The position numbers and the translations under genes are program-made. Of a stretch of DNA of 46,825 nt, positions 17,723 to 20,275 are shown piece by piece. Positions within the stretch are counted from its first letter, which is position 1, and each line of letters begins with the position of its first letter. The notes under the pieces were generated by a model. It saw nothing but the letters and a program-made list of their open reading frames with translations, was not told the DNA's origin and did no database searches. Source of the stretch: Acidimicrobiaceae bacterium (lineage in GTDB: Bacteria > Actinomycetota > Acidimicrobiia > Acidimicrobiales > Ilumatobacteraceae); NCBI GenBank assembly GCA_002698945.1, contig NZZV01000196.1, positions 1-46,825 on the forward strand. Direction: 5' to 3'.

Positions 17723-18988
17723 CTACAGCAGTTCGGCGGCGGCGTGGATGACGACGCCGGCCAGTCCACCCACGAGGGTGCCGTTGATCCGGATGAACTG
17801 GAGATCACGGCCGACCTGCAGTTCCATGCGCCGGGCGGTCGACTCGCCGTCCCACCGTTCGACCGTCGATGCGATCAGGTCGCTGACCTCGCTCCGGTAG
17901 TGCTCGACCAGGTAGCCGAGTGCACGCTGGACCCAGTCGTCGACCTTGTGCTGCAGCTCCGGATCGGTCGACAGACGCTGACCGAGCTGCTGCAGGCTCG
18001 CCGTGGCTCGGATGCGGAGCTCGCTCGCCGGATCGTTGGCGGCGTCGATCAGGCTCTGCTTGGCGCCGAGCCACAGCGACTCGATCCAGGCCCGGAACTC
18101 AGGATGGTCGAGCAGCTCGGCCTTCAACTCCTCGCCCTTCGCCAGGAGCTCGGGATCGCGCTTCAGACGTTCGGCGAAGGCGACGACCCGCTCCTCGATC
18201 GAATGGCGCACCTCGTGATCGGCGTCGGCGCCGACGTCACCGATGAACGAACCGACGGCGGTGTAGATCTTGTCGAAGATGCGATCGTCGATCGGTTCGG
18301 GCACCCACCAGGGTGACTCCTGGTCGAGCCGATCGCGGAACGTCGCTCGGTTGTCGTCGAGGAAGCCGCCGAGCCCGACGAGCACTGCGTCGAGGAGACG
18401 CTGGTGGTGGCCGCCCTCGACGGTCAGGTCGATCGCCTTGCCGACGACCGGCGACACCGGCGTGTCGGCGATCCGCCGCCGGACGACGCCCTCGAGACCG
18501 TGTTGGACCTCGCGATCGTCGAGTACCTCGAGCGTGCCCTTCAGGGCGTCGCCCAACGCTTCGGATGCTTTGGCGGCGTTCTCGGGGCGGGCGAGCCACT
18601 CGCCGGTGCGTCGGCCGATCCCGGCCTGCTCGAGGCGCTCACCGAGCACTTCGGCGGTGAGGAAGTTCTCTTCGACGAAGGTGCCGAGGCTGCGTCCGAT
18701 CTGGTCCTTGCGTCGCGGGATGATCGCGGTGTGGGGGATCGGGAGGCGCAACGGGTGCCGGAACAGTGCCGTGACGGCGAACCAGTCGGCGAGGGCACCG
18801 ACCATGGCCGCTTCGGCGAAGGCCTTGACGTAGCCGACCCATCCCTCGCGGCCGTCGAGCGACGCCCAGACGAACACGATCGCCGCTGCGACGAGCAGCG
18901 ACAGTGCCACCAACTTCATGCGGCGGAGGTCGCGCGCCCGTGCGGCGTCGGCGAACGTCTCGCCGGTCGGGATCATCGTGGTCGACAT
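17723..18988 (-). CDS. DUF445 (YheB-like) membrane-anchored protein
   Basis: A 421-residue DUF445 protein: one or two N-terminal membrane helices (~25-45), then the family block AFAEAAMVGALADWFAVTALFRHPLRLPIPHTAIIPRRKDQIGR (split here at FR) and a long helical region, ending with a hydrophobic helix (NGTLVGGLAGVVIHAAAE). Family members are inner-membrane proteins of unknown function. The ATG at 18988 is 6 nt behind TATGGT (18995-19000); the 17-codon upstream extension would run through that box. Head of a two-gene unit with the amidohydrolase; divergent from the gene at 19033. Confidence 0.85.
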   Translation of the reverse strand: MSTTMIPTGETFADAARARDLRRMKLVALSLLVAAAIVFVWASLDGREGWVGYVKAFAEAAMVGALADWFAVTALFRHPLRLPIPHTAIIPRRKDQIGRSLGTFVEENFLTAEVLGERLEQAGIGRRTGEWLARPENAAKASEALGDALKGTLEVLDDREVQHGLEGVVRRRIADTPVSPVVGKAIDLTVEGGHHQRLLDAVLVGLGGFLDDNRATFRDRLDQESPWWVPEPIDDRIFDKIYTAVGSFIGDVGADADHEVRHSIEERVVAFAERLKRDPELLAKGEELKAELLDHPEFRAWIESLWLGAKQSLIDAANDPASELRIRATASLQQLGQRLSTDPELQHKVDDWVQRALGYLVEHYRSEVSDLIASTVERWDGESTARRMELQVGRDLQFIRINGTLVGGLAGVVIHAAAELL

Positions 18989-18994
18989 GCCCGG

Positions 18995-19000
18995 ACCATA
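18995..19000 (-). promoter_or_regulatory. -10 box TATGGT of the DUF445 gene
   Basis: TATGGT, 6 nt before ATG 18988. Together with TACCGT (19021-19026) it makes a compact divergent leaderless promoter pair in a 44-nt gap. Confidence 0.55.
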
Positions 19001-19020
19001 CCCAGGTGGTGGGGCCGGTC

Positions 19021-19026
19021 TACCGT
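19021..19026 (+). promoter_or_regulatory. -10 box TACCGT of the gene at 19033
   Basis: TACCGT, 6 nt before ATG 19033, facing TATGGT on the other strand. Confidence 0.55.
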
Positions 19027-19032
19027 GCACCC

Positions 19033-19617
19033 ATGACACGTCTCACCCCGCTCACCCGTGACCAGCTCGACGAGACCGGCGCCGCGATCTGGGACGGCCT
19101 CGTCGAGAGCCGCGGCGGCGCGTTCGGCCTGACCGGACCCGACGGTGCGCTGGTCGGCCCGTTCAACGCATTCGTGCACGCGCCCGACCTCGGCCGGAGG
19201 CTCTCGTCGCTCGGTGCACACCTCCGGTTCGGGACCTCGATCGATCGACGTCTGACCGAGGTCGCGATCTGTACGGTCGGCGCCCATTGGCACGCCGAGT
19301 TCGAGTTCTGGGCCCACGCGCCGATGGCGACGGAGCACGGTGTCGCCGAGCATGTGATCGACGCGCTGCGCGCCGGCACACGACCCGACTTCGAACGCGA
19401 CGACGAACGCATCGTGTACGACATCGTGAGCCAGTCGCTCACGAACCATCGCGTCGACGAGGCGACCTACGTCGAGGGTCGTGAACTGCTCGGCGAACAG
19501 GGGCTCGTCGAGCTGGTGTCGATCTCCGGCTACTACTGCCTGATCTCGCTGCTGCTCAACCTGTTCGACGTCGCCCTGCCCGACGATGCCGAACGAGCGT
19601 GGCCCGACCTGGCGTGA
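19033..19617 (+). CDS. Carboxymuconolactone decarboxylase-fold (AhpD-like) protein
   Basis: A 194-residue all-helical protein of the CMD/AhpD superfamily. The block LTEVAICTVGAHWHAEFEFWAHAPMATEHG (split here after HWHAEFEF) corresponds to the E-x-C-x-H active-site region, but the redox CxxC of AhpD is not there: only one Cys is in place, as in many 4-carboxymuconolactone decarboxylase-like proteins. A peroxidase role is therefore unlikely; decarboxylase or other proton-transfer chemistry fits better. Monocistronic with a leaderless promoter. It ends 15 nt before the convergent DsbA-family gene. Confidence 0.82.
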   Translation: MTRLTPLTRDQLDETGAAIWDGLVESRGGAFGLTGPDGALVGPFNAFVHAPDLGRRLSSLGAHLRFGTSIDRRLTEVAICTVGAHWHAEFEFWAHAPMATEHGVAEHVIDALRAGTRPDFERDDERIVYDIVSQSLTNHRVDEATYVEGRELLGEQGLVELVSISGYYCLISLLLNLFDVALPDDAERAWPDLA

Positions 19618-19632: not shown

Positions 19633-20262
19633 TCAGACGTCGGGTCGGTCGCCCAACTCGGGTGACTCGGTGCGGGTGCGCTTGAGCTCCCAGAAGCCGG
19701 GCACGTCCATCATCGCGGTGAGGGCGTCCCAGAGCTTGAGGGAGAGGTCGCCGGGCGGCACCCGGGTGATGACCGGCCCGAAGTAGGCCTGTCGCTCGCC
19801 GTCGGCGTTGTCGAACGCGATGATCGGCGTACCGATGTCGTCGCCGGCGAGCTCGAGGCCGACGTCCATCCGACGACGGATCTCGTCATCCCAGCTGTCG
19901 TCGTCGGCAGCCTCGGCGAGCTTCGGGTCGAAGTCGAGGCGTTCGAGCATGGCGCCCAGGTCGGCAGTGTCGCGATCGCCGTCGTGATGCACCACGGTGC
20001 CGGCGAGGAGATACCAGCGCTGCACTGCAGCGTCGCCGTACTCGGAGCGAACGGCCTCCATGACGCGGAGCATCCGGTGCGTCGCGAAGACGGCCGCATA
20101 GTTCTCGGCGTCGGGCTCGATGTCGTTCTTGAACATCAGGCTGATCGGTTGCCAGACGACGTTCAGATCACGGTGCGGTGCAACTTCGTCGACGACCCAA
20201 CGGGCCGTCACCCAACACCATGGTCAAATCGGGTCGACCCAGAACTCAACATCGAGCGGCAT
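19633..20262 (-). CDS. DsbA-family oxidoreductase with in-frame TGA at the catalytic Cys: probable selenoprotein
   Basis: A 209-residue thioredoxin-fold protein resembling the mycothiol-dependent nitroreductase Rv2466c family. Read from ATG 20262 the N-terminus is MPLDVEFWVDPI-(TGA)-PWCWVTARW: family members have CPWC here, so TGA (20224-20226) replaces the first, nucleophilic Cys (residue 13) and Cys16 is kept. The frame is open for 196 codons after it. A SECIS-like hairpin follows at the right distance (20190-20210), and CAGACT (20270-20275) lies 7 nt before ATG 20262, supporting that start. Starting at GTG 20211 instead would delete the first strand and active site. Reading TGA as selenocysteine (UPWC) is inference. 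SelA/B/C/D are not in this window. Confidence 0.85.
20190..20210 (-). promoter_or_regulatory. Bacterial SECIS-like hairpin
   Basis: On the mRNA, 9 pairs (20210-20202 with 20198-20190, two of them G-U) close a 3-nt apical loop GUU (20201-20199). The loop starts 23 nt after the UGA and its first base is G, within the published criteria for bacterial SECIS elements (short apical loop, G in the first two positions, 16-37 nt from UGA). Confidence 0.7.
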
Positions 20263-20269
20263 GCATCCG

Positions 20270-20275
20270 AGTCTG
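20270..20275 (-). promoter_or_regulatory. -10-like box CAGACT of the TGA-containing gene
   Basis: CAGACT, 7 nt before ATG 20262. The distance is the same as for many other starts in the window and places the TGA inside the transcribed gene. Confidence 0.45.

Follow-up and report, generated by a model that had tools for sequence, protein, structure and literature searches.

A reading frame on the minus strand of a 46,825-nucleotide stretch of DNA from an Acidimicrobiaceae bacterium (the window) begins at ATG 20262-20260, meets a single internal stop at codon 13 (TGA 20226-20224) and then stays open to a TGA at 19635-19633. The residues around the internal stop read DPI-UGA-PWCW. Is this a broken gene or a late start, or is the UGA translated and, if so, as which amino acid? 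The first-pass annotation had described a lone TGA at the nucleophilic Cys of a CPWC motif in a frame otherwise intact, and reading of the frame confirms this description. We consider it very probable that the gene encodes a selenocysteine (Sec)-containing Rv2466c-like reductase (Mrx2, DsbA-Mrx1 cluster) with a UPWC site, the UGA being read as Sec and the enzyme probably being re-reduced by mycothiol. The features concerned are as follows.

19633-20262, minus strand: coding sequence for a 209-residue Rv2466c-like protein, predicted Sec at residue 13 (terminal TGA 19633-19635; PF22234 match; dN/dS)
20224-20226, minus strand: predicted Sec codon, an in-frame UGA at the position of the nucleophilic Cys of CPWC (TGA, TGC or TGT in 137 orthologue loci)
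20191-20209, minus strand: predicted bacterial SECIS hairpin, eight pairs with a GUU loop (synonymous entropy; covariation at pair 4)
20215-20217, minus strand: conserved second Cys codon (Cys16), predicted resolving residue (invariant in the alignment; role from Cys22 of Rv2466c)
20270-20275, minus strand: CAGACT hexamer 7 nt before the ATG, possible -10 element of a leaderless transcript (sequence, from which its function is predicted)

The hexamer, which had also been pointed out in the first pass, lies at 20275-20270, and hexamers identical or similar to it precede the start in several members of the genus. In three loci of this genus (L023, L024 and L026) a perfect palindrome, TTGCGCGCGCAA, stands shortly before a TCAGACT or TCATACT hexamer that adjoins the start codon; the gene in the window keeps CAGACT and has no TTGCGCGCGCAA palindrome. 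The palindrome and hexamer are perhaps the operator and the -10 element of a leaderless transcript. Downstream of the gene, a convergent ORF on the plus strand (window 18904-19617) resembles, by eye, a relative of the carboxymuconolactone-decarboxylase/AhpD proteins; a Pfam search with this ORF gave no match at 1e-5.

The protein matches Pfam family PF22234 ('Mycothiol-dependent nitroreductase Rv2466c') with 135.1 bits (gathering score 27), and the same family matches all 18 Sec members. The more general PF01323 (DSBA) is barely over its threshold for our protein (26.2 versus 25.6 bits) and matches every one of the 18 members at E 0.001, the level at which NCBIfam gave no match for our protein. 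Four distinct solved relatives were found by sequence (PDB codes 4zil, 4nxi, 5xur and 4wkw), and in the two alignments inspected the first Cys of CPWC stands opposite residue 13. A structure model built from the 18 Sec orthologues, with Cys written for Sec, has a pLDDT of 92.8; the best ten PDB matches in a Foldseek search with it are Rv2466c and its Mycobacterium leprae relative (TM 0.76-0.83). The available parts of two reports assign nucleophilic attack to Cys19 of Rv2466c, with Cys22 as its disulfide partner (PMC11841060), and nucleophilic and resolving roles to Cys21 and Cys24 of Corynebacterium glutamicum NCgl2478 (PMC8280269). Our motif keeps P-W-C behind a predicted Sec, one TGA member (L036) reads UPFC and the Cys orthologues have CPWC or CPFC; C16 is invariant among the 18 aligned Sec orthologues.

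Alignment of homologues had been proposed as a check on the Sec reading. In 137 orthologue loci (33 from the family, 27 class-wide and 80 from named genomes, minus the gene's own paralogues) codon 13 is TGA in 115, TGC in 17 and TGT in five, so that the column holds TGA or Cys codons only. An in-frame UGA aligned with the Cys of homologues is the pattern by which a selenoprotein is recognized. The 115 TGA loci include repeat genomes, and 52 remain below 90% identity. Codons were read individually because the search query (P0001) had an extra C at position 210 replacing the terminal stop, which turned natural stops into apparent 'stops inside'. The same-family search (221 genomes) provided 33 loci, own paralogues included, nine with TGA (eight from the gene's own genus and one from another) and 24 with TGC or TGT, and the class-wide search of 395 genomes provided 27. 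From the named genomes the best 80 of 150 matches entered the count; TGA is present in 79 of these best 80, despite one of the two search patterns having required the Cys of CPWC, a bias against TGA. The same 80 of 150 carry Acidimicrobiia-type labels (Acidimicrobiia, Acidimicrobiales, Acidimicrobiaceae) or unspecified ones (Actinomycetota, Actinomycetes, bacterium); Ilumatobacter, Microthrixaceae and Ferrithrix, which are also among the names, we take to be members of Acidimicrobiia. A phylum-wide search of 396 genomes, together with one own paralogue, yielded 30 loci from its stronger matches: 27 have Cys and three have TGA, all three from genomes already known. Outside the class, all 22 loci read have Cys at codon 13. 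Several Cys relatives from outside the class (L206, L208, L210-L213, L216, L217 and others) have CPWAW or CPFAW, the resolving Cys being missing. To judge from these sequences, the UGA codon and the predicted hairpin that follows it are shared by many related actinobacteria from the environment.

The consensus for bacterial SECIS elements is a short apical loop with an early G, 16-37 nt after the UGA. A 9 bp hairpin with a GUU loop, starting at +14 and with its loop at +23, had been noted in the first pass and was found again: GACGGCCC-GUU-GGGUCGUC (20209-20191) begins 14 nt past the UGA, places the loop G at +23 and has eight pairs, one of them G-U, or nine counting an outer U-G pair. The loop, synonymous constraint and one covarying pair all agree with a SECIS element. 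Among 52 TGA genes with less than 90% mutual identity, mean relative synonymous entropy is 0.21 over the six codons of the hairpin that allow a synonymous choice versus 0.91 over 83 other codons, and none of 100,000 permutations gave a value as low. The Cys genes provide a control (0.87 at the hairpin versus 0.83 for 65 other codons), which is thin because one hairpin codon alone is comparable.

Across 46 non-identical sequences, 97.6% of the cells in the hairpin are paired, and pair 4 shows compensatory changes (GC 42, AU 1, CG 1, UG 1, unpaired 1). Changes on both sides occur in three cells, a count reached in none of 500 shuffles; 56 of the 500 also had one pair with a double change, and the covariation rests on one pair. 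The covariation score is 0.047, which no shuffle reached, and the best slid version, with the 3' side moved by +3, scores 0.039. The loop-adjacent pair fails in eight of the 46 sequences, where AGG replaces CGT (eight of the 52 genes); in this variant the loop grows to five bases with G second. Folding of the RNA, another of the proposed checks, gave energies slightly better than those of shuffled sequence, which by themselves would not have revealed the hairpin: the 50 nt from the UGA give a z-score of -1.21, with 20 of 200 shuffles equally good, seven 45-nt sequences range from -0.45 to -2.48, and the best fold of one locus (L165) is without the hairpin. The case for the hairpin is based on synonymous constraint and covariation, folding energy not being relied on because the z-scores are weak.

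The genome contains the machinery that Sec insertion requires, and the search for selA, selB, selC (tRNA-Sec) and selD suggested in the first pass found each of them above its cut-off. The tRNA-Sec scores 66.6 bits with RF01852 (cut-off 47) and is called by ARAGORN as tRNA-SeC with anticodon tca (UCA); selA (413 bits, cut-off 268) is followed by an adjacent selB (265 bits, cut-off 242), whose match spans only positions 2-344 of 581, and selD scores 324 bits (cut-off 125). The genome has another apparent selenoprotein gene, for a formate dehydrogenase alpha subunit; it matches with 644.5 bits, under the curated cut-off of 666.25, and has one internal TGA in SCNRT-U-HAPSVVG, a UHxP motif of the kind listed for formate dehydrogenase selenoproteins in the part of a 2026 review available to us (PMC13188914).

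A tRNA-Sec is present in all nine TGA genomes of the same family and in 24 of 28 TGA genomes elsewhere in the class; two of the four without a match are at least 90% complete. Among genomes in which the gene is free of internal stops it is present in seven of 12, and the discrimination between the two groups is suggestive only. The family as a whole has a tRNA-Sec in 147 of 221 genomes, including Cys-form genomes such as G110. In one family (f50), the gene and tRNA-Sec share a contig, at a distance of about 7-12 kb, in nine of 11 TGA genomes examined; functional clustering was considered for this arrangement and rejected, and we read it as synteny of one family. A scan of 20 neighbouring proteins around L233 (10 of its 15 ORFs) and L235 (10 of 14) identified hflX, aminopeptidase N, an LLM F420 oxidoreductase and a thiolase, left some proteins unassigned and found no sel gene among these 20.

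Could the internal stop nevertheless be a sequencing error, a recent nonsense mutation or the mark of a pseudogene, or could translation start after it, at GTG 20211? The source is a draft assembly of 226 contigs that is 82% complete, and an ORF does begin at that GTG. The same TGA, however, is seen in 115 of 137 loci, including two from genomes assembled as a single contig (G102 and G108), and wherever the codon is not TGA it is Cys, a pattern that argues against error. The first-pass annotation had considered random nonsense unlikely to strike just this codon. The frame 3' of the UGA is under selection, with dN/dS of 0.03-0.20 in six pairs picked by the analyst (the 10-12 codons on the 5' side being too few for a ratio), and recurrence and dN/dS together rule out error and pseudogene in practice. 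Against a late start, F7, W8, D10 and P11 do not vary among the 18 Sec orthologues in the alignment, as expected from the earlier remark that the codons before the UGA fit the N-terminus of the family. We regard this whole group of explanations as extremely improbable.

Only marginally less remote is the reading of UGA as some other amino acid, through reassignment across the genome or through a suppressor tRNA that inserts Cys or Trp. Such a reading would suit the Cys column of relatives without TGA, and Cys insertion at UGA is possible under low selenium. UGA cannot be generally reassigned because the gene itself and many of its orthologues end in TGA, which rules out the genome-wide version; tRNA-Sec, selA, selB and selD in the genome and the constraint on the downstream hairpin count against the remainder. 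Most probably, then, to go by the sequence evidence, the internal stop specifies Sec as an active-site residue of a redox enzyme. The UGA read as Sec and the UPWC redox site of the first-pass annotation are supported by the machinery, the recurrence of TGA and the TGC and TGT alternatives, and we infer Sec insertion and the catalytic cycle from these. None of the outcomes named in the first pass as refuting the Sec reading was observed. SelB with Sec-tRNA(UCA) would bind the hairpin just past the UGA, and Sec would be inserted there instead of termination. The selenolate would then act as the nucleophile that attacks disulfides, or mixed disulfides in which a small thiol takes part. Cys16 would resolve the intermediate as a selenenylsulfide and the enzyme would be re-reduced by a thiol, probably mycothiol.

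The description of the protein as a mycothiol-linked enzyme held as far as membership of the Rv2466c-like family is concerned (135 bits versus 27), mycothiol dependence itself being a prediction. A Sec enzyme of this family might instead receive electrons from thioredoxin or another thiol, which we consider possible but less likely than not. Identity to the solved Rv2466c structures is just 32-35%, and in a search of 10 genomes for MshC no match reaches the curated cut-off of 485.1 bits, the draft genome studied here giving a single match of 289 bits. However, PF22234 membership counts against another donor, and in nine of the 10 genomes the better of two MshC matches scores 319-425 bits and the other 269-292 bits. 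The three better matches that were scanned just reach the CysS cut-off of 340 bits (340-344), which favours another donor, but score higher as MshC (418-423), which does not. One mshC-like match (G102:C1:2006015-2007121) has one TGA inside, probably a natural stop. Mycothiol as the electron donor of the Sec enzyme is on this evidence plausible, not established.

In a tree of 98 rows (residue 13 masked, midpoint root, quick search), at least five switches between Sec and Cys are needed, and branches with strong support force two of these; support for several of the inner branches is weak. The Sec rows are the 52 representatives, and L181, L196 and L197, apparent repeats of included genes, were omitted. 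We read the midpoint-rooted tree as suggesting one gain of Sec and about four losses to Cys. The Cys gene L033, from a single-contig genome (G110), retains the hairpin letters exactly and is sister, with support 99 and 80% identity, to the Sec gene L036 (G118), and on both grounds a recent change from Sec to Cys is probable here. Its hairpin is likely to be a fossil SECIS left by the loss of Sec. These two genomes offer a natural sister pair for direct measurement of what selenium contributes.

DsbA-like UxxC selenoproteins have been known since the Sargasso Sea study (nine sequences, COG2761; PMC1088965). Lists from 2006-2007 contain DsbA-like genes with a TGA from Desulfovibrio desulfuricans and others (PMC1794560, PMC1914089), a 2016 count arrived at 45 DsbA-like selenoproteins from 41 organisms (PMC5029168) and the 2026 review places DsbA-like forms 1 and 2 under PF01323, all as given in the portions of these sources available to us; as available, its table of 119 families has nothing under Rv2466c, PF22234 or mycothiol (PMC13188914). 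Our literature search found neither a link between Rv2466c and selenoproteins or selenocysteine nor a report joining Sec chemistry to the mycothiol system. There is a fair chance that, beside the known DsbA-like forms, the Rv2466c-like Sec form is an undescribed subfamily. For the fuller proposal we lean, by a small degree, towards acceptance: an undescribed Rv2466c/Mrx2-type subfamily with a Sec nucleophile across class Acidimicrobiia, with roughly one gain, several reversions to Cys and a fossil SECIS in at least one Cys descendant (L033). The Sec reading would give the Rv2466c/Mrx2 branch of thiol redox biology in actinobacteria a link with selenium and, if mycothiol is used, would connect Sec chemistry with the mycothiol system. 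Annotation that takes the UGA as a stop would be expected to lose or truncate the enzyme throughout the clade.

Among known systems, DsbA-like selenoprotein form 1 (PF01323, Sargasso Sea 2005, COG2761) shares with our protein an in-frame UGA and a UxxC motif in a DsbA-like domain, and our protein falls, barely, within the definition of UxxC in a PF01323 domain (26.2 versus 25.6 bits); the form 1 entries, as they appear in the available parts of the sources, are not named Rv2466c-like, and the separation from them drawn here is a provisional one by description. Enzymes of the DsbA-Mrx1 cluster, such as C. glutamicum NCgl2478 and NCgl2339, have a motif of the C-P-W/F-C type and a DsbA-like sequence, as here, according to the part of the report available (PMC8280269); they are Cys enzymes with measured activity, whereas the Sec form is known here from genes. 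M. tuberculosis Rv2466c (Mrx2), a mycothiol-dependent reductase (PDB codes 4nxi, 4zil and 5xur; 32-35% identity in structural alignments), resembles our protein in family model, fold and position of the active-site pair, but has Cys as the first residue of the motif where our gene has UGA, the predicted Sec.
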